A stretch of DNA of 41,080 nucleotides, taken from NCBI RefSeq assembly GCF_004571065.1, contig NZ_SPQN01000030.1, positions 1-41,080 of the forward strand. Direction: 5' to 3'. The notes below the pieces were generated by a model. The model made no database searches and was not told where the DNA came from. It saw only the letters and a program-made list of their open reading frames with translations. Position numbers and translations under genes: made by a program. Origin of the DNA: Geodermatophilus sp. DF01-2. GTDB lineage: Bacteria; Actinomycetota; Actinomycetes; Mycobacteriales; Geodermatophilaceae. Position 1 is the stretch's first letter. Every line of letters starts with the position of its first letter. This document shows, piece by piece, positions 8,826 through 32,172 of this stretch.

Positions 8826-9170
8826 GTGGACGACAATGCACCCCGGTCCCGCGCCAGGAGCACCGGCGGGCCGCCGTCCCCGGACGCCTCGCTGGACGTC
8901 GACGAGGCGGTGTTCGACGTCATCGAGCGCATCCCGCCCGGCCGCGTGAGCACCTACGGCGCCATCGGCCGGCTGGTCGGCGTCGGACCGCGTCGGGTCG
9001 CCCGCGCGCTGTCGCAGGGCGGGGGAGCGGTGCCCTGGCACCGCGTCGTGCGCGCCGACGGGACGGCGGCCGAGCCGGTCCGCGTCCGGCAGCTGAAGCT
9101 GCTCGCCGCGGAGGGTGTGCCCGTGCACGACGGCCGGGTCGACCTGGCCGTTGCCGGCTGGCCGGATTGA
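8826..9170 (+). CDS. Alkyltransferase-like protein (ATL), MGMT fold without acceptor Cys
   Basis: A 114-residue member of the O6-alkylguanine-DNA alkyltransferase DNA-binding domain family. The DNA-binding helix-turn-helix with its arginine finger is present (GRVSTYGAIGRLVG, then PRRVARAL). The acceptor motif PCHR is replaced by PWHRVV, Trp for Cys, so it cannot accept alkyl groups. ATL proteins bind alkylated guanine and hand lesions to nucleotide excision repair. It corresponds to Rv3204. The start is GTG 8826; the first 25 residues are low complexity. It is the last core gene before the accessory block; adnA, normally nearby in this gene order, resumes at 21347. Confidence 0.9.
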   Translation: MDDNAPRSRARSTGGPPSPDASLDVDEAVFDVIERIPPGRVSTYGAIGRLVGVGPRRVARALSQGGGAVPWHRVVRADGTAAEPVRVRQLKLLAAEGVPVHDGRVDLAVAGWPD

Positions 9171-9358: not shown

Positions 9359-12226
9359 TCACTCGGCGTGCCAGGTCATGGTGTCGTCCACCTGTTTGCT
9401 GCGCCCCGCCTCGGCGAGCAACTCCGCGAGGTGGCGGCCCTGGCGGTCGCCGAGGTGCGTGAGCTGCGTCCGGCAGGAGAAGCCGTCGGTGAGGATGACC
9501 GCGTTCTCGCCGGCGGCCCGTACCGCGGGCAGCAGCGCGGTCTCCGCGACCGCGACGGAAACGTCGAAGTGCCCGCGCTCGGCGCCGAAGTTCCCCGCCA
9601 GTCCGCAGCACCCGCCAACTGCCGTCACCGACGCCCCGCCTCGGCGCAGCAGTTCGGCGTCGGCGCCGAAGCCCATGACCGCGTGCTGGTGGCAGTGTGG
9701 CTGCGCGACACCGTGGACCCCCGACAGGTCCGGCGGCCGCCACCCCTCGCGCGAGGTCAGCAGCTCGGCCAGCGTCCCGGTCGCCGAGGCCACCGCGCGG
9801 ACCCCCGGCGCGTCCGGCCCGAGCAGTTCTTCTGCGTCGCCGCGGAACACCGCGGTGCACGATGGCTCGAGCCCCACGATCGGCACGCCCGCCTCGGCTG
9901 CGGGAGCGAGCGCGTCGACGCTGCGCTGCAGCTGCTTCTTCGCCGCGTCGAGCTGGCCGGTGGAGATCCAGGTCAGCCCGCAGCAGACCGGCTCGTCGGG
10001 AATTCGCACGGAGAACCCTGCGCTCTCGAGCACCTCCACGGCCGCCGCGCCAACCTGCGGCGTGAAGTGGTTCGTCCAGGTGTCCACCCAGAGCACCACC
10101 GGGTCACCCGGAGCTGACTCGGGCCGCCCGGCGAACCAGTCCCGGAACGTCCGCTCGGCGAACTGCGGCAGCGGCCGTCGCGGGTCGATCCCGGCCAGTC
10201 GCTTGCCGAGCGCGGCAGACGGTCCCAGCCTCAGGAGCCGGTTGGTCAGCCGCGGCGCCCGCGACGCGAGCCGCGCCCACCGCGGCAGCCACCCCAGGCT
10301 GTAGTGCGTGCGCGGCCGCGGCCGCCGCTTGTACGACTGGTGCAGCACCTCGGCCTTGTAACTCGCCATGTCGACCCCGGTCGGGCAGTCGACCGCGCAT
10401 CCCTTGCACTGCAGGCAGAGGTCGAGGACCTGGTGCACCTCCGGCGACCGCCAGCCGCCGCGCACCTGCCGGCCGTTCACCATCTCCTGCAGCACCCGGG
10501 CCCGGCCGCGGGTGGAGTCCTTCTCCTGGCGGGTCGCGAGGAAGGACGGGCACATGACCCCGCCGCTGCCGGTGATGTCGGCGCGGCACTTCCCGACGCC
10601 GGTGCACCGGTGCACCGCGTTGGCGAAGTCGCCGTCGTCGTCGTCGTAGGCAAGCGCCAGCCCGCGCCGCACCGGCCGGGCCCCGGGAGCCCGCAGGTCG
10701 GCCGTCGCCGGGGCGGGATCGACGAGCACCCCGGGGTTGAGCAGGCCCTCGGGGTCGAACGCGCGCTTGACCGCGGCGAACGCGGCCAGCGCGGCCGGTG
10801 AGTACATCAGCGGGAGCAGCTCGCTGCGGGCCCGGCCGTCGCCGTGCTCTCCCGACATCGATCCGCCGTGCGAGGCCACGAGCCGCGCCGCGTCGAGGAG
10901 GAACTCGCGGAACACGCCCACCCCGCCCGGTTCGGAGAGCGGGAAGTCGATCCGGACGTGGACGCACCCCTCGCCGAAGTGCCCATAGGGCAGCCCCACC
11001 AGCCCGCGCTCGACCAGCAGGGCGTCGAAGTCGCGCAGGTATGCGCCCAGCCGCTCGGTCGGGACGGCTGCGTCCTCCCAGCCGGCGTGGAAGAACCGCC
11101 CGCCGGCCGGGCGGCTGGCCAGCCCGGCGCCGTCCTCGCGGATGCGCCAGAGCTGCGCGGTCTCCCCGCGGTCGGTGACCACCCGGGCGTCGAGGGCGCC
11201 CGCGTCGGCGGCCACCCTGCCAGCCAGGTCGGCGACCTCGGCTGCGGTGTCGCCGCCGAGTTCCACGAGCAGCCAGCCGGCCCCGCGGGGCAGGTCGGGC
11301 ACAAACGCCGGCCCGCGGCGCCGGAGCACCACGTCGACGATCCGCGCATCGAGGCCCTCGATCGCCTTGGGGCCGTGCCGGCGTATGGCGGGAGCGGCGT
11401 CGGCGGCACTGGCCATGTCGGGGTAGCCGAGGGCGAGGAGCGTCGTCACCCGCGGGGCTCGGGCGAGGCGGACCGTGGCGCCGGTGAGCACGCCGAGCGT
11501 GCCTTCCGTGCCGACCAGCGCGCGGGCGACGTCGAACGCATGCTCCGGGAGGAGGTGCTCCAGCGAGTAGCCGGACACCTGCCGGCCGAACCGGCCGAAC
11601 TCGGTGCGGATCACCGCCAGGTTGTCGCGGACGACGTCGGCCAGCGCGCGCACGGCCGGGGACGACGCGGGGTCCGCCTGTGCCCGGGCCGTGATCCGCT
11701 CCCCGGCGCCGGTGAGCACGTCGAGCGCGACGACGTTGTCACTGGGCCGGCCGTAACCCAGCGACCGGCTGCCGCAGGAGTTGTTGCCGATCACCCCGCC
11801 GAGCGTGCAGCGGTTGTGCGTCGAGGGATCGGGGCCGAACCGCAGTCCGTGCGGCGCGGCGGCCCGCTGCAGGTAGTCGAGCACGACGCCCGGCTGGACG
11901 ACGGCGGTCGCCGCCTCGGGGTCGAGCGCGACGACTCGGTGCATGTGGCGGGAGAAGTCGAGCACGAGACCCGGGCCGACCGCGTTCCCCGCGATCGAGG
12001 TGCCGCCGCCCCGTGGCGTGACCGGGACTCTCAGAGAGCGGCACACCGACAGGGCGGCCTCCACGTCGTCGGCGGAGCGGGGGAAGGCCACCGCCTGCGG
12101 CACGACCCGGTACAGCGAAGCGTCGGAGGAGTACTCGGCCCGGGCTCGGCTGGAGGAGTCCACCTGCACTCCGGCCGACTCCAGCCCGGCAGTCAGGTCC
12201 CTGATCAACGTCGCGGGGCTACTCAT
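9359..12226 (-). CDS. Fused FAD-linked oxidase and Fe-S/CCG dehydrogenase (GlcD-GlcF / YdiJ-like)
   Basis: A 955-residue fusion. Residues about 35-260 are the FAD-binding domain (PRGGGTSIAGNAVGPG, 71-86; GVIGNNSCGSRSLGYG, 144-159). Residues about 260-505 are the FAD-oxidase C-terminal domain with the metal or substrate site GHFGEGCVH (His416, Cys421, His423) and GEHGDGR. Then come Fe-S ligands: Cys541, Cys547 and Cys559, then CLQCKGCAVDCP (Cys604, 607, 610, 614), and two CCG modules (VCCGLTW at 748, GGCCGLAG at 873). Such fusions oxidise D-2-hydroxy acids and pass electrons to a membrane acceptor. Start ATG 12226 has AAGGA upstream and overlaps the MmgE/PrpD gene by 8 nt. It is the last gene of the ten-gene run and probably its oxidative step; the substrate is unknown. 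Confidence 0.88.
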   Translation of the reverse strand: MSSPATLIRDLTAGLESAGVQVDSSSRARAEYSSDASLYRVVPQAVAFPRSADDVEAALSVCRSLRVPVTPRGGGTSIAGNAVGPGLVLDFSRHMHRVVALDPEAATAVVQPGVVLDYLQRAAAPHGLRFGPDPSTHNRCTLGGVIGNNSCGSRSLGYGRPSDNVVALDVLTGAGERITARAQADPASSPAVRALADVVRDNLAVIRTEFGRFGRQVSGYSLEHLLPEHAFDVARALVGTEGTLGVLTGATVRLARAPRVTTLLALGYPDMASAADAAPAIRRHGPKAIEGLDARIVDVVLRRRGPAFVPDLPRGAGWLLVELGGDTAAEVADLAGRVAADAGALDARVVTDRGETAQLWRIREDGAGLASRPAGGRFFHAGWEDAAVPTERLGAYLRDFDALLVERGLVGLPYGHFGEGCVHVRIDFPLSEPGGVGVFREFLLDAARLVASHGGSMSGEHGDGRARSELLPLMYSPAALAAFAAVKRAFDPEGLLNPGVLVDPAPATADLRAPGARPVRRGLALAYDDDDGDFANAVHRCTGVGKCRADITGSGGVMCPSFLATRQEKDSTRGRARVLQEMVNGRQVRGGWRSPEVHQVLDLCLQCKGCAVDCPTGVDMASYKAEVLHQSYKRRPRPRTHYSLGWLPRWARLASRAPRLTNRLLRLGPSAALGKRLAGIDPRRPLPQFAERTFRDWFAGRPESAPGDPVVLWVDTWTNHFTPQVGAAAVEVLESAGFSVRIPDEPVCCGLTWISTGQLDAAKKQLQRSVDALAPAAEAGVPIVGLEPSCTAVFRGDAEELLGPDAPGVRAVASATGTLAELLTSREGWRPPDLSGVHGVAQPHCHQHAVMGFGADAELLRRGGASVTAVGGCCGLAGNFGAERGHFDVSVAVAETALLPAVRAAGENAVILTDGFSCRTQLTHLGDRQGRHLAELLAEAGRSKQVDDTMTWHAE

Positions 12227-13595
12227 GACTGTCCTTCGCGTGTGACTCGGTGAGGTCGGGCGGCGCCGTCCCCGGCGCCGCGTACAGGTCGTCGGTGAGG
12301 AGGCGCAGGTCGCCGCCGGGCTGTGGCGCCGCGGCCACCAGGGCATGGAGCCGCTGCGCCCGCTCGCGCCCGACGACGGGCTCGGTGTAGGACCAGTACT
12401 TGGCGGCCAGGTCGCCGTCCGCCAGAGGATCCTCCGGATCCCCGCATGCTTCGACGAGGCCTGAGGTCAGCCGGCGGCCGTCGGCGAGCCGGACGGTCAC
12501 CCGGGCTTGGCGCCGCGCCGGGAATGCCTCGCTCATCTCGGCGCACTCGGTGACCGTCATGGTCCGGGCGAGTCTGCGGATGACCGCGTCGGTCTCGGGC
12601 AGCTCGGTGACGTCACACGGAAGCAGTCTCCCGCGGGCAGCGGCCACCGCGACCGGGAACGGCAAGCTGTACTGCGCTTGCTCGGTTGTGAGCGGTTCAC
12701 GAACCGCCAGCCGGGTGGCCAGGCGGAACGTCTGCACGTCGATGTGTTCGATGGCGGCCGCGGCGAGCCCGTTGCCCTCGACGAGTGAGATCACTGCGTC
12801 AACAGCCGGATGCGCCCATCGGCACACCGGGTACGGCTTGACGTACTGCTCCAGGATTCGCCACGTGCTGCCGAGGTCGCTCCACAGCCCGCTCGCGGCG
12901 CTTTCGACGAGGGCCGGCGGCGCGCCGGTGAATCCCTGACTGGCCAGCAGCGAAGCAGACACACCTGCCTGGCAGCCCCCGGCTGAGCTGTCCTTGACCA
13001 TCGTCGGGTGGTCGAGCACCCGGGTCATCGGCCCCCGCGGCGCGTGGTATTCGGCGATGCCGAGCGCGTGGCTCACCTGCGCGGCATCGAGCGCGAGGGC
13101 TCGGCTGCCGGCCGCAGCGGCCCCGACCGCGTTCCACGCTCCAGAGCTGTGGTAGTCGCCTGCGCTGGCGTGCAGCGCGATGCCGGCGCGAGTCGCGACC
13201 TCGTACCCGACGACCAAGGTGGTCAGCAGGTCCATGCCGTCGCTGCTGAGGGGATCGAGGAGGGCGAGCGCCGCGGGCAGGACGCTCACGCCGGCGTGGC
13301 CCTTGGTGAGCCGGTGCCCGTCGTGCGCGTCCATCGAGTCGATCGCCGCGGCGTTGGCGAACGCCGCGCCGACCGAGCTCACCGGCCGGCCGTCGAACAG
13401 CAGCCGGGCGGTGCGCCCGGCCGGCAGGAACTGGTCGAGCGCATGCTGACGCGCAATCCGGGACAGCTCTGTCGTGCTACCGGCCGCTGCCACCGCGACC
13501 AGGTCCAGCAGGCAGCGATGCGCGCACTCCACCACCGCAGCCGGCAAGTCCTCGAACTCGAGCTCCCGGATGAATTCCGTGACGCCGGAGCTCAC
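12219..13595 (-). CDS. MmgE/PrpD family protein
   Basis: A 458-residue protein of the MmgE/PrpD superfamily, which includes 2-methylcitrate dehydratase, cis-aconitate decarboxylase and iminodisuccinate epimerase. Family features visible are the helical N-terminal domain with AFANAAAIDSMDAHDGH and TKGHAGVSVLPAALAL, the conserved KPYPVCRWAHPAVDA strand, and a C-terminal domain with VTVRLADGRRL. The likely reaction is dehydration, isomerisation or epimerisation of a multi-carboxylate. The start is GTG 13595, overlapping the stop of the upstream gene as GTGA, so translation is probably coupled; its own 3' end overlaps the FAD/Fe-S gene. Substrate unassigned. Confidence 0.88.
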   Translation of the reverse strand: MSSGVTEFIRELEFEDLPAAVVECAHRCLLDLVAVAAAGSTTELSRIARQHALDQFLPAGRTARLLFDGRPVSSVGAAFANAAAIDSMDAHDGHRLTKGHAGVSVLPAALALLDPLSSDGMDLLTTLVVGYEVATRAGIALHASAGDYHSSGAWNAVGAAAAGSRALALDAAQVSHALGIAEYHAPRGPMTRVLDHPTMVKDSSAGGCQAGVSASLLASQGFTGAPPALVESAASGLWSDLGSTWRILEQYVKPYPVCRWAHPAVDAVISLVEGNGLAAAAIEHIDVQTFRLATRLAVREPLTTEQAQYSLPFPVAVAAARGRLLPCDVTELPETDAVIRRLARTMTVTECAEMSEAFPARRQARVTVRLADGRRLTSGLVEACGDPEDPLADGDLAAKYWSYTEPVVGRERAQRLHALVAAAPQPGGDLRLLTDDLYAAPGTAPPDLTESHAKDSHE

Positions 13596-14416
13596 CGCAG
13601 GAACAGCTCAGCGGGGACCGCCGAGGCGGCGGCGTCGAGCCGTGACCGCGGCACCCCGTGCGCCGCGAGAACGGCGATGAGCTGCTGCAGAGCCTCGGGG
13701 GGCGGAGGGGAGTCGGGCTGCCCGGCGTCGGAGGCGAGCACGAGCCGGTCGCCGGCGGCCCGGGCCACCTCCGCCAACATCTGGGGCGAGCAGCCAGGCT
13801 GGTGGAACAGCTGGTAGGCGGTGATCTCGACGTGGCCGCCGAGGTCGGCGAGCTCGGCCACCTCACCGGGGGTGAGCCCCGGCACGGTGTAGGACGGGTG
13901 AGTCAGCAGGACGCGCCGGATGCCGAAGTGCCGGGCGCGCTGAAGCAGCCAGGCGCACTCCGGCCCGCTGAGGTGCCCGGTCGCGAGCACGGCGTCGTGG
14001 TCGGCGACCAGCTGCAGCACGAGCTCGGTGACCCTTTCGGCGTGCGGCTCCACGGGCGGCACCGCGTACACCTCGCGCGACAGCCGGGTGTCCCGGTCGC
14101 AGAGCCGCGGCAGCCCGGCCCGCTCCTGGGTGTGCGCGTCGGCGCTCGGCATCCAGACGACCCGCCCGCCGGCGGCGAGTGCCGCGGCGGCCGCCGCGGG
14201 ATTGACGCCTCCGGCAGTCTGGTTCAGCGCGACGCCGCCGACGACGGCGAGGCCGGACCGGCGGGCCAGGGCTGCCGCGCGCCCTACGGTGGACTCGTAG
14301 TGCCCCTTGAGCACGAACCCGTCGAACCCCGCGGCGACGTAGCTCTGCAGGATGTCCTCGTCCTCGCCGATACGGTCAACGACGTCGGGCCCGGCATGGA
14401 CGTGCGAATCGAACAT
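13592..14416 (-). CDS. DUF6282-type metal-dependent hydrolase (amidohydrolase-like TIM barrel)
   Basis: A 274-residue metal-dependent hydrolase. Ligand candidates follow the amidohydrolase order: DSHVHAG at the very N-terminus (His5 and His7), Lys37 in VLKGHYES (possible carboxylated lysine), His in LATGHLSGPE, His in LLTHPSY, and Asp in LASDAGQPDS. There is no signal peptide. Expected chemistry is hydrolysis of a ring amide, lactone or similar bond. Start ATG 14416 lies 6 bp after the upstream stop, with a GAGGAGGA ribosome site inside the end of that gene. Assignment to DUF6282 is from pattern memory; membership in the metal-hydrolase superfamily is stronger. Confidence 0.78.
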   Translation of the reverse strand: MFDSHVHAGPDVVDRIGEDEDILQSYVAAGFDGFVLKGHYESTVGRAAALARRSGLAVVGGVALNQTAGGVNPAAAAAALAAGGRVVWMPSADAHTQERAGLPRLCDRDTRLSREVYAVPPVEPHAERVTELVLQLVADHDAVLATGHLSGPECAWLLQRARHFGIRRVLLTHPSYTVPGLTPGEVAELADLGGHVEITAYQLFHQPGCSPQMLAEVARAAGDRLVLASDAGQPDSPPPPEALQQLIAVLAAHGVPRSRLDAAASAVPAELFLR

Positions 14417-14422
14417 CGCCGC

Positions 14423-15277
14423 TCAGTCCTCCTCCTGCATCAGTGTCTCCAGCGCACGGCTGATGACGTCGAGACGGGCCTCGCGCAGCAGTGGCCACCG
14501 CCGGCGCAGCGCGCGGAGCTCGGTGAGGTCGAGGGTGGCCTCGGTCCGGCCCGGCTCGGTGCCGAGCCGGGCGATCTCCGCGCCGTCCGGGCCGAGGACG
14601 CGTGAGCCACCCCAGAACTCCTGCCCGCACTCCGTGCCCGACCGGTTGACGAACACCACGTAGGACTGCAGCACGACGGCGGAGTGGGCCAGCAGCAGCT
14701 CCCACGCCCGCTCGACCTGGACGACGGAGTGGCTGCGCACGCTGTTGGCAATGACGAACAGCACCTCGGCGCCGGAGTGCACCGCCAACCACGGCAGCGG
14801 CGGCTGCCATATGTCGTTGCAGATCAGGACCGCGGCCCGGGCGCCGCGGAGATCGAAGGACTGCAGCCGGCCGCCGGGGCGGAAGTGCTTGCGTTCCTCC
14901 CAGCCGCGGTAGGTGGGCAGGAACAGCTTGCGCTGCACGGTGACGCGGTCGCGATCGATGACGGCCGCGCTGTTGTACTGGTCGGAGCGGCGGTGTTCGA
15001 CGAAGCCTGCGATTACGGCTGGGCCGTGCTGGCCGAGACCGGCCAGCCGCTGGTCGTCAGCGGCGAGCGCGTCGACCTCGTCGAGGGCGCCCAGGAAGTA
15101 GCCGTGCAGGGCGAGTTCCGGGGCGACAGCGACATCGGTGTCGGTGAGCTGGTCGAGCTCGGCGTGCAGTTTCGCCAGGTTGCGTTCCACGCAGCCGAGC
15201 TGGGGCGCGGTCTGCAGCAGTGACACCCGCAGCTGCTTGCCCGCGTCCGCACCGCCGCCGGGAGCAGCCGGGGTCAC
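14423..15277 (-). CDS. Carbon-nitrogen hydrolase (nitrilase superfamily)
   Basis: A 284-residue amidase of the nitrilase superfamily with a complete triad: Glu54 (VAPELALHGY), Lys117 (VQRKLFLPTYRG) and Cys153 (LICNDIWQP). Length and motif spacing fit cytoplasmic amidases or N-carbamoyl hydrolases rather than membrane Lnt. It would cleave a terminal amide or carbamoyl group, releasing ammonia. Start GTG 15277 overlaps the upstream binding-protein stop as GTGA. Lying directly after an importer and before a metal hydrolase, it is probably an early catabolic step in the pathway; the substrate is not known. Confidence 0.88.
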   Translation of the reverse strand: MTPAAPGGGADAGKQLRVSLLQTAPQLGCVERNLAKLHAELDQLTDTDVAVAPELALHGYFLGALDEVDALAADDQRLAGLGQHGPAVIAGFVEHRRSDQYNSAAVIDRDRVTVQRKLFLPTYRGWEERKHFRPGGRLQSFDLRGARAAVLICNDIWQPPLPWLAVHSGAEVLFVIANSVRSHSVVQVERAWELLLAHSAVVLQSYVVFVNRSGTECGQEFWGGSRVLGPDGAEIARLGTEPGRTEATLDLTELRALRRRWPLLREARLDVISRALETLMQEED

Positions 15278-16233
15278 TGGATGAACCCCTGCTCGCGTAG
15301 CCAGTCGTTGGCCACCTGCTCCGACGTCAGGCCCTCGACGTCGACCTGTGCGTTGAGGGCCTGCAGCGTCTCGTCGTCCAGGGCCTCGCTCACCGGGGCG
15401 ATCACGTCGGCGATCTGCGGGAACTCGGCGATGACGGGCTCGCGCACGGTCAGTGCGGGGTTGTAGGCGGTGAAGAAGTTCCGGTCGTCCTCGAGCACCC
15501 TCAGCCCGAGTGCCTCGATTCGGCCGTCGGTGGCGAACACCTCACCGAAGCTGCAGGGGTCGCCCTGGTCGATCGCGTTGTAGATCGCTCCGGCGGCCAG
15601 CTCGGCAGTCTGCGCGTCGGGGAGGTCGAACTCGTAGGCCGCCTCCAGCCCGGGCCAGCCGTCGCCCCGGCCGAAGAACTCTGCGGCGCCGCAGAACGTC
15701 GCCTGCTGCGGGTTGGTCCGGGCGAGCTCGGCGTAGTCGGAGATCGTGGTGACCCCGAGCTCCTCGGCGGTCTCCTCGGCGACCGCGATCGCGTAGGTGT
15801 TGTTCGCCGGGGCGGGAGGGAGCCACACGACCTGGTTCTGCTCCTCGTCGGCCTCCGCCACGGCCTGGAACAGCTCCTGCGGGTCGCTGCTCGGGTCGGT
15901 CCGCTGGAGGTGGGTGATCCAACCCGTTCCGGTGTACTCCCAGTACATGTCGATTTCGCCGCTGAGCAGGGCGGAACGGGCGCTGTTCGTCCCGGACAGC
16001 CCGCACGTGCGCTGCACGTCGGCACCAGCCGATTGCAGCGCCTGGGCGGTGATCTCGCAGAGCACGAGCTGCTCGGTGAACTCCTTCGACCCCACGTTCA
16101 GCGTGGCGTCCTCCAGCGTGGCGCCTTCGGCCAGGGAGCCGGCTTCGACATCGGCGGCGGTTTCCTGGCCGAGCGCGCACCCAGTCAGGGCGACGGTGGC
16201 GAGTACTGCGGACAGGGCGAGACCTTTCGGCAT
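15274..16233 (-). CDS. OpuBC/ProX-type ABC transporter substrate-binding lipoprotein
   Basis: A 319-residue extracytoplasmic binding protein of the quaternary-amine uptake class. A short signal peptide ends in the lipobox LTGC (Cys19), so it should be lipid-anchored. The mature part starts with the family-typical LNVGSKEFTEQLVLCE and has MYWEYTGTGW, the hinge and ligand-cage region found in OpuC/ProX proteins. Four further Cys (CEIT, RTCGL, TFCGA, DPCSF) could give two disulfides. Start ATG 16233 has AGAGGA upstream. Relatives bind betaine, choline, carnitine or similar compounds, but neighbouring genes argue for a catabolic rather than osmotic role. The ligand cannot be named from sequence. 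Confidence 0.9.
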   Translation of the reverse strand: MPKGLALSAVLATVALTGCALGQETAADVEAGSLAEGATLEDATLNVGSKEFTEQLVLCEITAQALQSAGADVQRTCGLSGTNSARSALLSGEIDMYWEYTGTGWITHLQRTDPSSDPQELFQAVAEADEEQNQVVWLPPAPANNTYAIAVAEETAEELGVTTISDYAELARTNPQQATFCGAAEFFGRGDGWPGLEAAYEFDLPDAQTAELAAGAIYNAIDQGDPCSFGEVFATDGRIEALGLRVLEDDRNFFTAYNPALTVREPVIAEFPQIADVIAPVSEALDDETLQALNAQVDVEGLTSEQVANDWLREQGFIQ

Positions 16234-16276
16234 GGGGTCCTCTGCATCGTGAGATGGGCGTGGTCAGGAGCGGCGG

Positions 16277-17032
16277 TCAGAGCCCACGGGGGCGGAGCTT
16301 GTTCTCGGCGAGCCCGGCGAGCCAGTCGACGATCAGGGCGAGCGCGATGGTGAGCACGCTGCCGGTGAGCAGGATCGGCATCCGGTTGAAGACGATGCCG
16401 CTCTCGATGAACGTTCCCAGGCCGCCGGCGTTGGTGTAGGTGGCGAGCGCGGCCACGCCGACGTTGAGGATCAGCGCGACCCGGATGCCGGCGAGCATGA
16501 CCGGGACGGCGAGCGGCAGTTCGATCGTGGTCAGGACCTGGCGCGCGCTCATTCCCATGCCGCGTCCGGCGTCGATCAGGCTCCGGTCGACCTGTTGCAG
16601 CCCGACCATGGTGTTGCGCAGCACGGGTAGCAGCGCGTAGATGACGAGCGCGACGACGGCCATGGAGAAGCCAACCCCGACGAGGATCGCGAGGAGCACC
16701 AGCACCCCGATGGAGGGGATGGCCTGTCCCGCGTTCGCCAGTGCGAGGACCGGGGCGCCGAGCCAGCGGGCGCGGCGGCGGCTCAGCAGGATCCCCAGGG
16801 GCACGGCGATGACGATGACGAGCAGTGTCGAGGCGACGACGAGATTGATGTGTTGGATCGTCGCGTCGAGGATGGCGTCGGGGACGAGCACGCGCTGCTC
16901 GATGGAGTCCAGCGAGGCGACCTGCAGGTAGCCGAGCATGCCTGCGGTGAGGACGACGGCCAGGACGGGGAGCACCCAGCTGGCGACCGGTGCCTCGGCT
17001 TCGACGTCGATGACGCCCTCGGCCCTGCTCAT
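16277..17032 (-). CDS. OpuC-type ABC transporter permease (second)
   Basis: A 251-residue inner-membrane permease with about six hydrophobic helices, the first at residues 18-38 (WVLPVLAVVLTAGMLGYLQV) after a short acidic N-terminus. The coupling-helix (EAA-type) segment is DRSLIDAGRGMGMSARQVLTTIELPLAVPVM, matching the betaine-uptake permease family. Start ATG 17032 overlaps the ATPase stop as ATGA. It pairs with the 18050-18697 permease, giving a heterodimeric channel. A 43-bp gap with a ribosome site separates it from the lipoprotein gene. Confidence 0.9.
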   Translation of the reverse strand: MSRAEGVIDVEAEAPVASWVLPVLAVVLTAGMLGYLQVASLDSIEQRVLVPDAILDATIQHINLVVASTLLVIVIAVPLGILLSRRRARWLGAPVLALANAGQAIPSIGVLVLLAILVGVGFSMAVVALVIYALLPVLRNTMVGLQQVDRSLIDAGRGMGMSARQVLTTIELPLAVPVMLAGIRVALILNVGVAALATYTNAGGLGTFIESGIVFNRMPILLTGSVLTIALALIVDWLAGLAENKLRPRGL

Positions 17033-18057
17033 GACGGCACCTGCCGTCCTCGGGCCGCCGCCGCCAGCATCTCCTGCAGGCTCAGGCTGCGCTCCGCGCC
17101 CGGCTCGCCGTCGACGGCGAGCCGGGCGGCGCCGGCGTCGAGCATCTGCTCGAGCGCGGCGTACACCGTGGTCTCGGGCGGGACGCGCAGGGCCGGACCC
17201 GCTCCCGCACCGCCGCCGGCGCCCTCGAGGTCGCCGACGCGCAGCAGCCCGAGCCGGCGGATCGCAGCACCCGTGCCGACGAAGCTGCGCACGTAGTCGT
17301 CGGCGGGGTGACTGAGGATTTCCAGGGGCGTGGCGAACTGCGCGAGCTGGGAGCTCTCGCCGAAGATCGCGATCCGGTCGCCGAGCTTGAGGGCTTCGTC
17401 GATGTCATGGGTGACGAAGACGATCGTCTTGCGAATCCGCTGCTGCAGCTTGAGGAACTCGTCCTGCAGCCGTTCCCGGGTGATCGGGTCGATGGCTCCG
17501 AACGGCTCGTCCATGACCATGACCGGCGGGTCGGCCGCGAGCGCCCGGGCGACGCCGACGCGTTGCTGCTGCCCGCCGGAGAGCTGCTTGGGATAGCGCC
17601 GGCGGTACTGCGCCGGGTCCAGTCCGACGAGGTCGAGCAGCTCGTCGACCCGCGGCTCGATCCGCTTCTTGTCCCAGCCGAGCAGCTTGGGCACCAGACC
17701 GACGTTCTGGCTGATCGTCAGGTGCGGGATCAGCCCGACCTGCTGGATGACGTAGCCGATGTGCCGGCGCAGCTCGTCGGGATCGGTATGCGTCACGTCC
17801 CGGCCGTCGATCCAGATCTGCCCGGACGTGGGTTCGACCAGTCGGTTGATCATCCGCAGCGTCGTCGTCTTCCCGCAGCCGGACGGGCCCACGAAGACGA
17901 CGAACTCGCCGCGGCGGATCTCCATGTCGAGCGGTCGCACCGAGTCGGTGGACTGCCCGGGATAGCGCTTGCGGAGCCCCTCCAGCTTGATCATCACGTC
18001 GTTCGGAGGAGAGGCGCTGTCGAGGCGGAGAGCAGTGGAGCCGAAGGAATCAGACAC
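17029..18057 (-). CDS. OpuC-type ABC transporter ATP-binding protein
   Basis: A 342-residue ATPase. It shows Walker A GPSGCGKT, Q-loop (YVIQQVGLIPH), signature LSGGQQQR, Walker B VMVMDEPFGAID and H-loop VTHDIDEAL, all intact. The C-terminal ~80 residues follow a Gly-rich stretch (EGAGGGAGAG) and look like a single reduced CBS-like module, where betaine-transporter ATPases usually carry two CBS domains that sense ionic strength. Loss of a full CBS pair would suit an importer that is not osmotically gated (inference). The start is GTG 18057, overlapping the upstream permease by 8 nt; ATG codons downstream are possible starts. Confidence 0.92.
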   Translation of the reverse strand: MSDSFGSTALRLDSASPPNDVMIKLEGLRKRYPGQSTDSVRPLDMEIRRGEFVVFVGPSGCGKTTTLRMINRLVEPTSGQIWIDGRDVTHTDPDELRRHIGYVIQQVGLIPHLTISQNVGLVPKLLGWDKKRIEPRVDELLDLVGLDPAQYRRRYPKQLSGGQQQRVGVARALAADPPVMVMDEPFGAIDPITRERLQDEFLKLQQRIRKTIVFVTHDIDEALKLGDRIAIFGESSQLAQFATPLEILSHPADDYVRSFVGTGAAIRRLGLLRVGDLEGAGGGAGAGPALRVPPETTVYAALEQMLDAGAARLAVDGEPGAERSLSLQEMLAAAARGRQVPS

Positions 18058-18697
18058 GAAGACCTCGCGGTGTGGTGAGGCGGCGGGCCAGCACGAAGAG
18101 CAGATCGAGCACGAGGGCGACCAGCACCACGCCGACCACGCCGGCCAGTGCTTGGTTCAGGGCGTTCGCGCCGCCGATCCGGGCCAGGCCGCGGAAGATC
18201 AGTTCGCCGAGGCCGGGGCCGCGTACGGCGGCGGCGATGGCCGCGATCGCGACCACCATGATCGTCGACACCCGGATGCCGTTGAGGATCACCGGCCAGG
18301 CGAGGGGGAGCCGAATGGTGCGCAGGCGACCCCAGGAGTTCATTCCCATCCCCCGCGCGGCCTCGACAACCGCCGGGTCGACGGTCTCCAGTCCGGTCAC
18401 CGTGTTCCGCAGGATCGGGAAGATCGCGTAGACGGTCAGGGCGACGACGGTCGGGGCGAGCCCGAGGCCGAGGACCGGGATGAGCAGGCCGAAGAGGGCG
18501 AACGACGGCACCGTGAGCAGCGTGCCCGTGAAGGCCAGGAGCAGACGGCGCAGTCGTGGTGCCCGTTCGGTGGCGATTCCGAGACTGACTCCGATCACCG
18601 CCGCGACGGCGACGCTGAGCAGCACGACCTGCACGTGCTGCGTGGTGAGGAAGATGATCTGCTGGGCGTTGCGCGAGACGTACTCGAGGAACTCCAT
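18050..18697 (-). CDS. OpuC-type ABC transporter permease (first)
   Basis: A 215-residue inner-membrane permease with helices around residues 20-42, 50-75, 80-100, 145-165 and 180-205, and the coupling motif DPAVVEAARGMGMNSWGRLRTIRLPLAWPVI. Its length is that of the short OpuBB/OpuBD permeases. Start ATG 18697; it lies 12 bp after the hydrolase-like gene and overlaps the ATPase gene, so it belongs to the same transcript. Confidence 0.9.
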   Translation of the reverse strand: MEFLEYVSRNAQQIIFLTTQHVQVVLLSVAVAAVIGVSLGIATERAPRLRRLLLAFTGTLLTVPSFALFGLLIPVLGLGLAPTVVALTVYAIFPILRNTVTGLETVDPAVVEAARGMGMNSWGRLRTIRLPLAWPVILNGIRVSTIMVVAIAAIAAAVRGPGLGELIFRGLARIGGANALNQALAGVVGVVLVALVLDLLFVLARRLTTPRGLRV

Positions 18698-18709
18698 CAG
18701 CCCTCCCTG

Positions 18710-19627
18710 TCAGTCCGTTGCTGTCGGCTTCGTGGTGCTGAACGCCTTGGCGAGGAACTCGTCGACCAGGCTCATGACGTGCTGGAACGTGGGGTCCTCG
18801 TCGGCCATCCACTCGGTGTGCCCGCGGCCCTCCAGCAGCTCCAGGCGCTTCGGCTCGCCGGCGGCGTCGTACAGGGCCTGCGCCTCCTCGGCCCGGTGCA
18901 GCTGGTTCTCGGCGCCGTGCACGACGAGGACGGGCCTGGGCGCGATGCGGTGCACCACCTCGCCGGGGGCGAAGCGCAGCAGGTAGTCGGCGGACTCCAG
19001 CGTGACGCCCGAGCCGAAGCCGGATGCCTTGTACAGCTCCTCCCCGACGTATCCGTCGGTCCGCGTGTCGAGGTCGAGCCGGACGATGTCCCAGGGCGAG
19101 GTGATCTCCGACCGCCCGGTCGAGACGCGGTGTTCCCGGTCGGCGTCAACCCGCTTGAGCAGGCTGTTCCAGGAGTTGTCGTCGTGCATCTTCTGCGTCG
19201 ACCGGTATCCGTCCGCGATCCCGTTGGCGACGACCACCGCGCGGACCCGCGGGTCGTAAGCCGCCTCCGCCACGACCACGCCGCCACCCAGGCCCCAGCC
19301 CAGCAGGGCGACCCGCGTGGCGTCGAGGTCGGAGTGGGAGGTCACGCGGTCGACCGCGGCGCGGACGTCCTCGGCCCACTCCTGGGGCACCAGCCGACCC
19401 CGCTCGCCCTCACTGAACCCGAAACCCCGGTAGTCGAAGGCGAGGACGGCGTAACCGCGGCGCGTGAGGGCCCGCGCGAACCGCTCGGGGTGGATGATCT
19501 TCAGGCCCTGGTAGCCGCTGGCCGGGACTACGACCGGGTACGGCCCGCGGGAGTCCCCGTCAGGCAGGTGCAGGTCGGCGTCGAGCCGGAACCCGTTGCT
19601 GAAGAAGGGCAGGTGGACAGTGCGCAC
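18710..19627 (-). CDS. Alpha/beta-hydrolase-fold protein with the nucleophile position changed to Gly
   Basis: A 305-residue protein with the overall alpha/beta hydrolase layout: the oxyanion-like VVVPASGYQG, FDYRGFGFSEG after the second strand, an elbow, and a C-terminal GRGHTEWM with the usual catalytic His (His270). The elbow reads LLGWGLGGG, so the nucleophile Ser or Cys expected at residue 112 is Gly. The acid strand reads VVHGAENQLHRAEE, with Glu240/Asn241 where Asp is normal. It is therefore unlikely to be a classical serine hydrolase; it may be a non-hydrolytic enzyme or binding protein. Start GTG 19627 with GGAGAT upstream. It is the second gene of the accessory operon, just after the IclR gene. 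Confidence 0.8.
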   Translation of the reverse strand: MRTVHLPFFSNGFRLDADLHLPDGDSRGPYPVVVPASGYQGLKIIHPERFARALTRRGYAVLAFDYRGFGFSEGERGRLVPQEWAEDVRAAVDRVTSHSDLDATRVALLGWGLGGGVVVAEAAYDPRVRAVVVANGIADGYRSTQKMHDDNSWNSLLKRVDADREHRVSTGRSEITSPWDIVRLDLDTRTDGYVGEELYKASGFGSGVTLESADYLLRFAPGEVVHRIAPRPVLVVHGAENQLHRAEEAQALYDAAGEPKRLELLEGRGHTEWMADEDPTFQHVMSLVDEFLAKAFSTTKPTATD

Positions 19628-19696
19628 GTGATCTCCAAGGAGGTGTGTCGGGTGTTGCGGGGGCAGTGAGGGCGCGCGAAGTGGCGGCGGCCCGCC

Positions 19697-20485
19697 TCAG
19701 GGCGCGGGGGCCGATGTGATCCGGGACAGGTGGGACGCGGCCGCGGCGACCTGCTGGCCGACCGCAGGCAGCCGGTCGCGCAGCCGGTAGGCGGGTGCGG
19801 ACACGTTCAGGGCCGCTACGATGCGGCCGCGGAAGTCCCGGACGGGAGCCCCGGCGGCGACCAGCTCCGCATCGAACTCGCCGTCTGCCAGGGCGAAGCC
19901 CCGGGCCCGAGCCTCGTGCAGCCGCTGGAGCAGCTCCTTGGCGCTGCGCGGGGTTCGAGGGCCTGACGCGCCCGGCGGGGGACCGCCGTCGAAGAGGCGC
20001 CGCACGTCGTCGTCCGAGTGGTCGAACAGCAGCGCCCGACCCGACGCGGTGCAGTGGATGGGGGCGCTGCGACCCACCCAGCCGACGGCCTGGATCATCT
20101 GACGGGAACTCTCCGACAGGATGGTGAGCACCTCGCCGCCGCGCAGCACGCTGAGGTGCACGCGCTCGCCGGTGACAGTCGAGAGTCGGTGCATGACCGG
20201 GGGTGCGAGCAGCAGGAGCCGTTGATCGCCAGCGCGGGCGGCGAGGGTGAACAGGCGCCAGCCCAGCCGGTGCCGCCCGTCCTCGCTCCGCTCGACCAGA
20301 CCCAGCTCGACCAGCGGGCGCAGCTGGCGAGACGCGATCGATTTGTCCCGCCCGATCTCCTGCGCGAGCTCCGCGACGGTGAAGCCCGAGCCGCTGGCGC
20401 CGTCGTCCGCGATCCCGGCGACAGCCTCGAGCATCGCGAGCACCTTGCCCGCTGCCGTCTTGTCCGTGTCGTCCACATCACACAC
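19697..20485 (-). CDS. IclR family transcriptional regulator
   Basis: A regulator of about 262 residues. Residues about 10-75 form the winged HTH (KTAAGKVLAMLEAVAG then FTVAELAQEIGRDKSIASRQLRPLVELGLV), followed by the IclR effector-binding domain (VHLSVLRGGEVLTIL; IHCTASGRALLF; the Gly-Ala loop GAPVRDFRGRIVAALNVSAP). GTG 20485 or GTG 20476 are the plausible starts; neither has a Shine-Dalgarno, so the N-terminus is uncertain by a few residues. An inverted repeat just upstream (20505-20533) is a likely operator. As first gene of the minus-strand run it probably controls the whole operon in response to the imported compound or an intermediate. Confidence 0.88.
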   Translation of the reverse strand: MCDVDDTDKTAAGKVLAMLEAVAGIADDGASGSGFTVAELAQEIGRDKSIASRQLRPLVELGLVERSEDGRHRLGWRLFTLAARAGDQRLLLLAPPVMHRLSTVTGERVHLSVLRGGEVLTILSESSRQMIQAVGWVGRSAPIHCTASGRALLFDHSDDDVRRLFDGGPPPGASGPRTPRSAKELLQRLHEARARGFALADGEFDAELVAAGAPVRDFRGRIVAALNVSAPAYRLRDRLPAVGQQVAAAASHLSRITSAPAP

Positions 20486-20504: not shown

Positions 20505-20533
20505 GAATGCAATCTGCCGATGCATTCATTGCA
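20505..20533. promoter_or_regulatory. Candidate IclR operator upstream of the accessory operon
   Basis: Two nested perfect inverted repeats occur 20-50 bp upstream of the iclR start: GAATGCA (20505-20511) with TGCATTC (20521-20527), and TGCAAT (20508-20513) with ATTGCA (20528-20533). A weak minus-strand promoter (TTGCAA, 17 bp, TGCATT) overlaps them. This AT-richer patch stands out in very GC-rich surroundings. Assignment to this IclR protein is inference. Confidence 0.5.
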
Positions 20534-20802
20534 ACGCCACAGCGCCCCACAGCTGCCCTGCGTCGGCACCGGGACCGCTGCGCCCACCGCCTTGCCGGCG
20601 AGCAGGGGGACGCCCTGCTGTGCCGGACTTCGGGGGCAGGCATGACCCACATCCCCTCCTGCTCCCGACAGCTGCCGGTCGCGCGGTGCGGCCGCCGGGG
20701 ACAAGTTGGGCCGAAGGCCCATCACCCAGTGGCGCGAAGCGCCCTTCCGGCGGGGTGGCGGAGCCGCGATCATCGAGGCAGGGAGCAGTACCACTCGCTG
20801 GG
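20534..20802. other. Gene-poor stretch upstream of the accessory operon
   Basis: No convincing gene. It holds two small adjacent hairpins on either side of ATCACCCAGT: GGGCC-GAA-GGCCC (about 20711-20723) and GGCGC-GAA-GCGCC (about 20734-20746). It may be the remnant of an insertion or a structured untranslated region. Confidence 0.35.
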
Positions 20803-21144
20803 CTACGCGGCGGGTCCCTGGCCCGAATGGTCCGGGATGGGGCCAGCGGCGGTCCGCTGCCGGGCCGTGCTTCTGCGTGCCTTGGGTGCTCTTGCCGCGG
20901 GAGCGACCGTGGGTGCGCCGGGCGGGGTGTCGAGGCCGAGCTTGCGCAGGTACTCGGGGCTCCATCCGCTGTTCTCCGCGGTTGCGTGGGCGGTGGCGTC
21001 GGCTCGTTCGGCCTGCTCCAGTGCGGTCCGGGCGTCGATGACTGCCTGGCGCGTCTGGGTCAGGTGACGGACGGCGGTCACGCGGTTGTCGAGCAGGGCG
21101 TGGGCCTTCTGCTCGGGGTCCTCGGTGATGGCGGGCGTGGTCAT
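20803..21144 (-). CDS. Small unknown protein with coiled-coil core and basic tail
   Basis: A 113-residue protein that I cannot assign. From ATG 21144 it reads MTTPAITEDPEQKAHALLDN, then a charged helical stretch with heptad character (RHLTQTRQAVIDARTALEQAERADATAHA), a WSPEYLRKLGL segment, and a Pro/Ala/Arg-rich C-terminal tail. No signal peptide or membrane segment is seen. Small proteins of this build are frequent near integrated elements in actinobacteria, so it may be a leftover of the event that brought in the neighbouring operon (inference). An imperfect inverted repeat (21181-21190 with 21194-21203) lies about 40 bp upstream and could be an operator. Whether it is translated is not certain. 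Confidence 0.6.
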   Translation of the reverse strand: MTTPAITEDPEQKAHALLDNRVTAVRHLTQTRQAVIDARTALEQAERADATAHATAENSGWSPEYLRKLGLDTPPGAPTVAPAARAPKARRSTARQRTAAGPIPDHSGQGPAA

Positions 21145-21346
21145 GGCGTCGCACTGGTGCGCGGGTCCAGGACCGACCCCGATGGATGCGCGCCGCACCC
21201 ATCTGCATGGGCGTCCGGGAGCAAGCTGTGCGGGCAGGTCCGCCAACCTTGGCCGCGTTGTCACCAGCGCACTCCACTCCGCAAGGTGCTTTGGGACGCG
21301 CGGCCCGGTTTCCGGTGCTGTCAGCAGGCCGTGGTCTCATCGGCCC

Positions 21347-24300
21347 GTGGTGCAGCGGGGTGGTGGACGGGCGGCTGCTCTCGATGGTGGCGTGGGCTCG
21401 GGTGCGCCGGTCTACCGACTCGTGCAGGGCGAGCCGGTCGCGGCCGCGCGTCCGCGGCTGGACCGCACGCAGCAGGCCGTCGTCGACCACCCTGGCGGCC
21501 CGCTGCTGGTTCTCGCCGGCCCCGGCACCGGCAAGACGACGACGATCGTCGAGGCCGTCGCCGCGCGCATCGAAAGGGGAGTGGACCCCGAACAGATCCT
21601 GGTCCTGACCTTCAGCCGCAAGGCCGCCGCCGAGCTGCGCACCCGCATCACCGGCCGGGTGGCGCGCACCATTCGTGAGCCGCTGGCCCGCACCTTCCAC
21701 TCCTACGCCTACGGCGTCCTGCGTCGCGCCGCGCTGCTGCACGGTGAGCCTCCGCCCCGGCTGCTCACCGCCGCCGAGCAGGACGCCGTCGTCGCCTCGC
21801 TGCTGCGCGGTGACCTCGAGGGCGAGGGCGCCGTGCGCTGGCCCGAGGACCTCGCGCCGGCGCTGGCCACCAACGCCTTCCGCGGCGAGCTGCGCGACCT
21901 CCTGCTGCGTGCCACCGAGCGCGGGGTGCCCGCGGCGCAGCTGGCGGCGTGGGGCCGGGAGACCGGACGCGAGCACTGGCTCCACGCGGCGGCGTTCGCC
22001 GAGCAGTACGAGGCGGTCACCGCCTTCGCCACCGCGGCGCGCGGCGACTCCTCCGGGTACGACCCGGCCGAGCTGGTCCGCCAGGCCATCCTCGAGCTCA
22101 CCGACGACCCCGACCTGTTGCGTCAGGAGCGCGAGCGCGCCCGCTGGCTGTTCGTCGACGAGTACCAGGACACCGACCCCGCCCAGGTCGAACTGCTCGA
22201 GCTGCTCGCCGGCGGAGGCGGCGACCTGGTCGCGGTCGGCGACCCCGACCAGGCGATCTACGCCTTCCGCGGCGCCGAGCCGCGCGGCATCGTCGAGTTC
22301 CCCGACCGGTTCCGGCACGTCGACGGGCGGCCCGCCGACCGGGTCTCCCTCGGCGTCTGCCGCCGGTCGGGCGCCGAATTGCTGCAGATCAGCCGCAAGG
22401 TCGCCGAGGGGCTGCCCGGTCCGGCCCAGCACCGGCGACTGCAGCCCGTGGACGGGGCCGACGACGGCACCGCCGAGGTGCACGTCTTCGGATCGGCCGC
22501 GGTCGAGGCCGCCTACCTCGCGGACGTCCTGCGCCGCGCGCACCTGCTCGACGGGGTGCCGTGGTCGCAGATGGCGGTCGTCGTCCGGACGGCGATGGCG
22601 CTGGGGCCGCTGCGTCGGGCGCTGACCTCCGCCGGCGTCCCGGTGGCCGTCTCCGCCGACGACCTGCCGCTGGCCGCCCAGCCCGCCGTGGCGCCCTTCC
22701 TCTCCGCGCTCGACGCCCTGCTGCCCGGCACCGACGGCACACCCGCGGGTCTGGACGAGCCGGCGGCCGAGGCGCTGCTGGCCTCGCCGCTGGGCGGCGC
22801 CACGGTGCTCGACCTGCGCCGGCTGCGCCGCGCGGTCCGCATCGCCCTGGCCCAGCAGGGCGTGGACGCCGCCGAGCGCGGTGCCCCGCTGGCGACCGCG
22901 GTCACCGACGAGCTGCTGCTGGAGACGCTGCCCGAGCACGTGGCCCGCCCCGCGCTGCGGGTGGCCGGCGTCCTCGCCGTGGGGCGGGCCGCGCTCGCGC
23001 ACGACGGCAGCACCGAGGACGTGCTGTGGGCGATGTGGCAGCGCAGCGGACTGGCCGGCCGGTGGGCGCGGGCCAGCGCTGCCGGTGGGCCGGCCGGAGC
23101 CGTCGCCGACCGCGACCTCGACGCCGTCGTCGCGCTGTTCGACGCCGCCGCCGGCTTCGTCGACCGGTTGCCCTCGGCCGACGTCCGGGCATTCGTCGAG
23201 CACCTCTCCGCCCAGGAGCTGCCCGGCGACACCGGCGCGGCGCGGGCCTCGGCCGACGAGACGGTCCGGCTGCTGACCGCGCACGCGTCCAAGGGCCTGG
23301 AGTGGGACGTCGTCTGCGTGGCCGGCGTGCAGGAGGGCGTGTGGCCGGACCTGCGGGAGCGCGCCACGCTGCTCGGCACCGAGGACCTCGTGGAGCTGGC
23401 CGCCGGCATCGACGGCGCCGCGGTCGACCGGCGCACGCTGGCCCTCGCCGAGGAGCGGCGGCTCTTCTACGTCGCCTGCACCCGGGCCCGCCGTCGACTG
23501 GTGGTCACCGCCGTCCAGGGCGCGCTGGACGGCGCCGAGGCCGGGGCGACCGCCTCGCGCTTCCTCGACCTGGTGGTGCCACCTCCGGACGACGGCCGTC
23601 CGCTGACCGAGCTGCCCCGCTCGCTCACCCTGCCCGCGCTCGTCGCCGACCTGCGCCGCGCGGTCGCCGATCCGCACACCCCGCCCGCCCGTCGCTCGGC
23701 CGCCGCGGCCGTGCTGCGCCGGCTGGCCGAGGAGGGCGTGCCGGGCGCCGCGCCCCGGCACTGGTGGGGCCTGGCCCCGCTGTCGGACGACGCGCCGCTG
23801 GTGCCCGTCGACGCCACCGTCCGGGTGCGGCCTTCGGCGATCGAGACGTTCCAGCGCTGCCCGCTGCGCTGGGTGCTGGGCGCGGTCGGGGCCGAGGCCT
23901 CGCCGGACGCCACCCGCACCGTCGGCTCGGCGGTGCACGCGGTGGCCCAGCAGGTCGCGGAGGGGCTGCCGCCCGCCGAGGCGCCCGACGCGCTGGCCGC
24001 CGAGCTCGACCAGCTCGACCTCGGCCCGGGCTGGTCCGACCAGCGCCAGCGGGCCACCGCCCAGCAGATGCTCGAGCGGTTTCTGCGCTGGCACGCGGCC
24101 AACCGGCGTGAGCTGGTCGCCGCGGAGGCGGACTTCGACGTCACCGTCGGTCGGGCCCGGCTGCGCGGGCAGGTCGACCGGCTCGAGCGCGACGCCGAGA
24201 GCCGGCTGGTCGTCGTCGACCTCAAGACGGGCAGGACCGCGGCCAAGGACGTCGAGACCCACGGGCAGCTGGCCGCCTACCAGGTCGCCGTCGTCGCCGG

Positions 24301-28014: not shown

Positions 28015-28141
28015 CCCTGGGCAGGCCCTGCCGCGAGACCGCAGCGACCACGAAGTAGACGGCACCGCTGACCGGAGCCGCTAGCGTCCACTTTGCGGGC
28101 GGCACTTGTCCTGACCGCCTGCGGCCCGTGGGAGCGCCTCA

Positions 28142-28813: not shown

Positions 28814-28820
28814 CCCGCTC

Positions 28821-29657: not shown

Positions 29658-29664
29658 GGCCGCG

Positions 29665-29674
29665 ACGCTACCGT
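29665..29674. promoter_or_regulatory. Shared symmetrical -10 of two divergent leaderless genes
   Basis: ACGCTACCGT reads as TAGCGT on minus (7 nt before ATG 29657) and TACCGT on plus (8 nt before GTG 29683). The two hexamers share the central TA, and both messages would start at or next to their start codons. The -35 region of each gene lies inside the coding start of the other. Confidence 0.6.
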
Positions 29675-29682
29675 CGGCAGCC

Positions 29683-31101: not shown

Positions 31102-31130
31102 GGTCGGACGGCCGTCCCGGGTCGCCGTCC

Positions 31131-31136
31131 TAGGGT
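31131..31136 (+). promoter_or_regulatory. Leaderless -10 (TAGGGT) of the DUF2510 gene
   Basis: TAGGGT lies 6 nt before GTG 31143, with no Shine-Dalgarno between, the TAnnnT-N6-GTG arrangement of leaderless actinobacterial genes. Confidence 0.5.
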
Positions 31137-31142
31137 GGCGCC

Positions 31143-32021: not shown

Positions 32022-32081
32022 CACGGGGGGTCGTGCGCCGTCCCGGGTCGTGACCGAGGCACTCTCGCGCGGTTGTCCCCG

Positions 32082-32129
32082 CTCTTGCGGTCCTGCACGA
32101 GCGCGGGAGCTGGTGCAACGGCGCAAGAG
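32082..32129 (+). terminator. Long imperfect hairpin after the DUF2510 gene
   Basis: 17-nt arms CTCTTGCGGTCCTGCAC (32082-32098) and GTGCAACGGCGCAAGAG (32113-32129) pair except for a 4-nt internal bubble, around a 14-nt loop. The rest of 32022-32185 shows no gene. Confidence 0.5.
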
Positions 32130-32172
32130 TCGGAGCGAACGCACCGCACGGCGCGGCGTCCCCGGCCGCGGC

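Follow-up and report, generated by a model that had tools for sequence, protein, structure and literature searches.

Gene content and position of the operon

The window considered here, which is the whole stretch of DNA that was analysed, is the entire 41,080-nucleotide contig NZ_SPQN01000030.1 of Geodermatophilus sp. DF01-2, whose genome comprises 4.45 Mb in 199 contigs. Open reading frames and Pfam families place ten minus-strand genes at 9359-20485 in an operon arrangement. In the order of transcription, an IclR-family regulator is followed by an alpha/beta-hydrolase-fold protein, the permease A, ATPase, permease B and lipoprotein of an OpuC-type ATP-binding cassette (ABC) importer, an amidase, a DUF6282 protein, an MmgE/PrpD-family protein and a fused flavin adenine dinucleotide/iron-sulfur (FAD/Fe-S) dehydrogenase. 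Adjacent genes overlap by 4 or 8 nt or are separated by 6 to 69 nt, and both families and coordinates agree with an initial annotation of this DNA, which had described ten minus-strand genes with overlaps or small gaps. With moderate confidence, we regard them as a horizontally acquired, self-regulated operon for the uptake and breakdown of an amidated quaternary-ammonium solute of the betaine class. The features are as follows.

20505..20535, minus strand: candidate operator, with GTTGCAATGAATGCATC at 20519-20535 and the inverted repeat GAATGCA-N9-TGCATTC at 20505-20527
19697..20485, minus strand: IclR-family regulator, first gene of the operon (IclR_C 115.6 bits; in 23 of 25 loci)
18710..19627, minus strand: alpha/beta-hydrolase-fold protein with Gly112 at the nucleophile position and His270 kept (Hydrolase_4, Peptidase_S15 in Pfam)
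18050..18697, minus strand: OpuC-type permease A (BPD_transp_1 83.5 bits)
17029..18057, minus strand: OpuC-type ATPase (proV subfamily 324.9 bits, slightly below the cut-off of 326.6)
16277..17032, minus strand: OpuC-type permease B (BPD_transp_1 79.9 bits)
15274..16233, minus strand: substrate-binding lipoprotein with a candidate tyrosine cage, Y97/Y100, N145, Y147, Y218, Y257 (OpuAC 217 bits)
14423..15277, minus strand: nitrilase-superfamily amidase with putative triad E54-K117-C153 (CN_hydrolase 84 bits)
13592..14416, minus strand: DUF6282 protein, predicted amidohydrolase-like metallohydrolase (DUF6282 173.8 bits)
12219..13595, minus strand: MmgE/PrpD-family protein, accessory (Pfam; in 3 of 25 loci)
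9359..12226, minus strand: fused FAD/Fe-S D-2-hydroxyacid-type dehydrogenase (FAD_binding_4, FAD-oxidase_C, 4Fe-4S and CCG in Pfam)

The frame of the last gene is open from 12346, with the ATG at 12226 (MSSPATL..) as the likely start, which gives an overlap of 8 nt with the end of the MmgE/PrpD gene at 12219; comparisons used 9359-12229 as the query.

The operon is flanked by an Rv3204-type gene (8826-9170) and by adnA (from 21086), and the idea that it interrupts a conserved core gene order was borne out by an empty site in other members of the genus. Indeed, adnA was present in 25 of 25 genomes searched, 15 of which belong to the same genus besides the host; in all 14 of these that were compared, the two flanking genes lie next to each other: their matches are separated by no more than about 3.7 kb, and nothing between them matches a cassette gene, the genes within the three widest gaps being left unnamed. 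Vertical inheritance at this place is thus rejected. The sole same-genus genome with a close DUF6282 protein (G767, 67% identity) has a different gene order, and Thermomonospora and Allokutzneria reach 77%. In particular, the window permease, ATPase, regulator, hydrolase and DUF6282 protein are 68 to 82% identical to those of Thermomonospora, Actinomadura and Allokutzneria (L001-L004), with 63 to 66% for the lipoprotein and 59 to 67% for the amidase. Identity drops to 51 to 53% when the FAD/Fe-S protein is compared with those of L001, L003 and L004 (no copy lies within 9 kb in L002), while Rhodococcus plasmid proteins in different surroundings reach 64%, so that this part seems to have been exchanged. 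Beyond the insert (window 21086-34922) lie core genes, i.e., two that we take to be AdnA/AdnB-type helicase genes, names which do not come from Pfam, an M20 peptidase, a DUF2510 protein and two M16 peptidases. Four synteny loci have, upstream, matches of about 30% to the ATPase, which we regarded as unrelated transporters.

Conservation of the gene set and its palindrome

The gene set was followed through 25 loci, defined as matches to the DUF6282 protein in named genomes; their titles are all from Actinomycetota, and near relatives of the window genome may have been omitted. Companion genes were counted with fixed identity thresholds within 9 kb of DUF6282, and the counts tell how often the others accompany DUF6282, not the reverse. 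The amidase was found in 24 loci, the IclR regulator in 23, the alpha/beta-hydrolase (in two clades) in 21, the OpuC-type binding protein in 20 and the FAD/Fe-S protein in 18, followed by MmgE/PrpD in 3 and a GltS-type symporter in 1. A partial 36% hydrolase match lies at 5797-6216 of L020, and three loci (L015, L022, L007) are on contigs of 4 to 8 kb, where some gene absences are merely apparent. The initial annotation had staked its reading on these genes occurring together in other genomes, and they do accompany each other; gene content and co-occurrence likewise back the view of import and catabolism as one unit. No flanking gene family is common to more than two of the 25 loci, and the association goes beyond chance because the genes travel jointly across genera, with unshared flanks and a common palindrome. 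An osmoprotectant importer standing by chance beside unrelated enzymes would fit the OpuC/OsmF class of the importer and is highly improbable; chance clustering was rejected on the co-occurrence counts and on the palindrome shared across many genera.

The close form of DUF6282 is rare. In an even draw of the phylum, any match was found in 28 of 396 genomes, in 22 of them above the family cut-off, and just three places besides the window are near 50% identity (48, 50 and 53%). IclR is present at all three, and hydrolase and importer genes at two, L059 having neither. A draw of 394 genomes of the class gave one other close copy (G614, 67%), which stands with IclR, hydrolase and FAD/Fe-S genes and has no importer or amidase match at its locus.

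With one mismatch allowed, the palindrome, GTTGCA-N5-TGCAAC, precedes the regulator or the first gene at all 24 loci examined and is exact in 11; the window copy has one mismatch, and several loci have a second site 22 bp away. When scored as TTGC-N7-GCAA with at most one mismatch, it occurs at 47 sites in 11.9 kb of upstream sequence (3.96 per kb) and at 95 in 478.6 kb elsewhere (0.20 per kb), an enrichment that weighs less in favour of a self-regulated operon as it describes the very stretches in which the palindrome was first spotted and so cannot serve as independent evidence. Within the window genome, GTTGCANNNNNTGCAWC is matched perfectly at the operon alone. A wider regulon was rejected: the genome has no further perfect site, and matches at up to one mismatch number 13, compared with 39 for a reversed-pattern control. 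The IclR protein may bind the palindrome.

Relatives of the gene set are found in three or more bacterial phyla, although the examples outside Actinomycetota are few and come from plasmid records only. In Prauserella (L009) and on a Priestia plasmid (L069), DUF6282, hydrolase, FAD and Fe-S genes are accompanied by a GltS-type symporter, and the stretches read contain no OpuC importer; the two symporters are 44% identical to each other, and in Prauserella the symporter gene, too, is preceded by an exact palindrome. The use of DUF6282 as a marker beyond Actinomycetota was rejected, as among six plasmid places examined, out of 43 matching records, the module was found only in Priestia. In Shinella sp. 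HZN7 the full plan of importer, amidase, amidohydrolase, nucleophile-less hydrolase and FAD/Fe-S protein recurs, with an AraC-type instead of an IclR regulator, and the place of DUF6282 is taken by a protein 60% identical to an Amidohydro_2-family protein of Mesorhizobium. The Shinella FAD/Fe-S gene (pShin-01, L189:15010-18014) is unannotated, its halves matching the overlapping stretches 15010-16548 and 16491-18014. Mesorhizobium itself has the trio of amidohydrolase, hydrolase and FAD/Fe-S protein with another ABC importer and a nitrilase.

Importer and enzymes

The OpuC-type family matches uphold the proposal of an importer for cationic or zwitterionic solutes. The N-x-Y motif and aromatic cage of the quaternary-ammonium subcluster F-III could be aligned with the lipoprotein, a mapping onto solved cages that rests on motif spacing, not structure. 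Among 21 binding proteins, Y97, Y100 and Y147 are Tyr in all, N145 is Asn in 20, and Y218 and Y257 are Tyr in 17 each. A tyrosine cage for quaternary ammonium is described in EgtU and AfProX (PMC9732360), and two of the cage tyrosines in an OpuBC relative (PMC8820738); the lipoprotein appears to retain these positions, quaternary ammonium being the predicted ligand class. Family, subunit plan and cage motifs are thus those of the OpuC/AfProX/EgtU importers, whereas the window importer is coupled to catabolic enzymes and scores 215.9 on the OsmF equivalog against a cut-off of 400.

Nitrilase-superfamily amidases act through a Glu-Lys-Cys catalytic triad, and alignments including relatives show E54, K117 and C153 of the window amidase to be conserved with their surroundings, so that its catalytic residues are in place. 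The alpha/beta-hydrolase differs from its fold. The nucleophile elbow of such enzymes carries Ser, Cys or Asp, whereas the window protein reads G110-W-G112-L-G114, and its relatives share the missing nucleophile, as had been noticed at the outset for the window protein. Indeed, all 29 matches at E ≤1e-20, from 26 distinct places and with Priestia among them, carry Gly or Ala here, and remote relatives (26 to 27% identity) from Mesorhizobium and Shinella carry Ala; H270 does not vary across 26 rows. Ser occupies the position in 7qjm, the closest relative of solved structure, and the UilS N-acyl-homoserine lactonase model NF047920 gave 131.6 bits, below its cut-off of 400. The absence of the usual nucleophile hints at undescribed chemistry.

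DUF6282 is predicted to belong to the amidohydrolase superfamily, which is marked by the pattern HxH, His, His, Asp. Alignment by hhalign gave a probability of 95.3 to Amidohydro_2 proteins and 38.7 to PTE proteins, and all 28 rows of an alignment keep D3, H5, H7, H148, H173 and D230. Sequence searches found no relative of it in the PDB, and no literature under that name was found among open PubMed Central papers. The host has two further DUF6282 genes. One, on contig C101 (L062:4189-14046), is accompanied by an enoyl-CoA hydratase, another MmgE-family gene (31%), an SDR, an MFS transporter and a protein resembling a coenzyme A (CoA) ligase (ATP-grasp, CoA-binding); the other is on contig C166.

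MmgE/PrpD is an accessory gene, and its presence in so few loci, together with 23.6 bits on the 2-methylcitrate dehydratase PrpD equivalog (NF042438, cut-off 950), leaves the notion of an obligatory dehydration step unsupported. Its closest solved relatives are IDS-epimerase (E 2e-19) and cis-aconitate decarboxylase (5e-19) of the same family, but its motif set is shared instead with members near betaine-type genes, the relatives in question being the Pseudomonadota Paracoccus, Ancylobacter, Sulfitobacter and Mesorhizobium; the other host MmgE-family protein read (L062) lacks these motifs. The FAD/Fe-S protein, like YdiJ and the glycolate oxidase GlcDEF, joins an FAD-linked oxidase to Fe-S and CCG domains, yet it remains far below their equivalog cut-offs, with 424 bits against 1350 for the D-2-hydroxyglutarate dehydrogenase YdiJ (NF049975) and 205.2 against 567.9 for GlcD.

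Substrate, route and competing explanations

The gene set probably handles an ammonium-carrying amide, perhaps a plant betaine. Homologous importers and amidases supply no fewer than three kinds of downstream gene set, for which an amidated betaine would be the simplest account: once imported and deamidated, it could be demethylated (Paracoccus), processed as a CoA ester (Caballeronia) or relieved of its amine (window type). As background, glycine betaine catabolism relies on GbcAB, followed by dimethylglycine and sarcosine oxidation. It shares the quaternary-ammonium importer class, and GbcA-, GbcB- and Sox-like genes adjoin the homologous importer and amidase in Paracoccus denitrificans, Ancylobacter and P. 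alcaliphilus, the last found via the amidase. The Paracoccus GbcA-like Rieske protein scores 528.5 bits against a cut-off of 670 and stands with a GbcB-like reductase and sarcosine-oxidase-like proteins; the amidases are 35% (P. denitrificans) and 27% (Ancylobacter) identical to that of the window. The window operon, in contrast, has no oxygenase or demethylase and adds the amidase, DUF6282, the nucleophile-less hydrolase and the D-2-hydroxyacid-type dehydrogenase. The route had been thought to be CoA-free, which stands for the window operon, where no CoA gene occurs, but does not extend to relatives, since in Caballeronia and P. denitrificans the homologous importer and amidase stand with genes for CoA ligase and acyl-CoA dehydrogenase.

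In the proposed route for an amidated betaine, the OpuC-type importer would take up the cation, held by the tyrosine cage, and the nitrilase-fold amidase would free ammonia and leave the free acid. DUF6282 and the nucleophile-less hydrolase might then jointly strip the amine to give a D-2-hydroxy acid, the step of the hydrolase being the least certain of all, and the FAD/Fe-S enzyme would oxidize this acid to a 2-oxo acid, passing electrons to respiration. Where present, MmgE/PrpD may interconvert isomers or hydrate or dehydrate an intermediate, while the IclR protein on the palindrome would respond to substrate or product. Our best guess at a single substrate is glutamine betaine or a close analogue, which would explain why the symporters are of the glutamate type and the dehydrogenase of the D-2-hydroxyglutarate type. 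Cereals are reported to contain both glutamine betaine and glutamic acid betaine (PMC5890289, PMC5920414). For this substrate an oxygenase-free path can be drawn, speculative and with little probability of being right in its details, from glutamate betaine, the product of deamidation, to a lactone and trimethylamine, then to D-2-hydroxyglutarate and 2-oxoglutarate. The nucleophile-less hydrolase would let the gamma-carboxylate of the substrate displace trimethylamine to form the lactone, DUF6282 would open it to D-2-hydroxyglutarate and the FAD/Fe-S enzyme would yield 2-oxoglutarate. The symporter variants could import glutamate betaine directly in Prauserella, which has no amidase match; in Priestia, a nitrilase-like lipoprotein could first split the amide outside the cell.

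Besides the origin of the palindrome enrichment, several observations weigh against a betaine operon of this kind. Among the 25 loci the importer is absent in 5, the FAD/Fe-S protein in 7 and the hydrolase in 4, and short contigs explain only some of these absences. In L001, a near relative, Pro and Phe replace the tyrosines at 218 and 257, and the cage is incomplete in L018, L019 and L021. Any catalytic role of the alpha/beta-hydrolase is itself presumed. In Priestia, a two-domain nitrilase-like lipoprotein (L069:7644-9491) is encoded on the symporter strand, with 24.7% identity to the window amidase, and it might cleave the amide extracellularly; the argument from symporters without an amidase is therefore reduced to the single case of Prauserella, though it had contributed little to our overall confidence, which stays as it was. 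A Parabacteroides relative of the symporter (44%) lies in an unrelated neighbourhood without such a module. The homologous importer and amidase were found at just 4 of the 9 MmgE places examined (P. denitrificans, Ancylobacter and two Caballeronia), out of 20 listed places from 435 records; of the remainder, Sulfitobacter has a nitrilase-like gene, Mesorhizobium the set described above, M. mediterraneum an FAD-dependent oxidoreductase and dipeptidases, L. caerulea a trimethylamine-methyltransferase-family gene and L. aquaemixtae none of these. The GbcA oxygenase is not in the operon, and its best match in the host genome reaches 106 bits against the cut-off of 670; betaine demethylation in the host was thus rejected, and methylamine use by the host is unsupported since no GbcA match exceeds the cut-off. 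Lastly, three FAD/Fe-S relatives examined on Rhodococcus and Mycobacterium plasmids stand without the other operon genes except an IclR.

One of these leads to a different product. On a plasmid of Mycobacterium dioxanotrophicus (L138:8974-19635), an FAD/Fe-S relative (58%), perhaps a glycolate dehydrogenase, lies amid genes for glyoxylate carboligase, 2-hydroxy-3-oxopropionate reductase and glycerate kinase, which fits glycolate as the product and also counts against the betaine reading. An amide or amine could then end as glycolate, with the FAD/Fe-S protein as glycolate dehydrogenase and the IclR protein as a sensor of glyoxylate; indeed, the second-best NCBIfam model of the regulator is the glyoxylate-sensing BhcR (105.1 bits). 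However, the PcaR/PcaU/PobR subfamily model ranks above it (105.8 bits), with every score far below cut-off, glyoxylate carboligase or glycerate kinase was not noticed in the other neighbourhoods annotated, and the GltS-type variants suggest a larger, acidic substrate, so that we deem glycolate unlikely, if worth keeping in mind.

The solute might instead be an amide of carnitine or gamma-butyrobetaine, with MmgE/PrpD as a dehydratase or epimerase on the carnitine skeleton. This would suit the CoA ligase and acyl-CoA dehydrogenase of P. denitrificans, the latter with 119.7 bits on the crotonobetainyl-CoA dehydrogenase model, and their close relatives in Caballeronia. The same dehydrogenase, however, scores higher on the glutaryl-CoA dehydrogenase model (248.1 bits, under the cut-off of 470), MmgE is missing in 22 of the 25 loci and the D-2-hydroxyacid enzyme would have no obvious role, which makes a carnitine-type solute distinctly unlikely. 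A slightly poorer prospect is that the operon degrades a ring compound and not a betaine, DUF6282 opening a lactone- or pyrone-type ring. On a Thermus oshimai plasmid (L072:6318-10984), DUF6282 is followed by a PIG-L-family gene and 4-carboxy-4-hydroxy-2-oxoadipate aldolase, with a ring-cleavage dioxygenase nearby, and a PIG-L gene also lies beside DUF6282 in Alicyclobacillus and at seven actinobacterial loci that form a group (Pfam run on one); yet these DUF6282 proteins are about 28 to 35% identical to that of the window and belong to other gene sets. The Thermus oshimai protein may itself hydrolyse a ring-cleavage product.

Returning to the amidated betaine, no described pathway for this gene set was found among open PubMed Central papers, and the titles found on glutamine and glutamate betaine cover occurrence, analysis and osmoprotection, bacterial breakdown not being among them. 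Beyond the initial annotation, the present analysis adds the palindrome, the variants with a symporter, the occurrence in other phyla and the association with betaine demethylation genes. All in all, if this reading is true, the operon would provide an oxygenase-free, testable route for an amino-acid betaine and a new way of removing trimethylamine from it; it would also assign functions to DUF6282 and to a nucleophile-less hydrolase that is itself conserved, and supply a set of markers for locating such pathways in other phyla.

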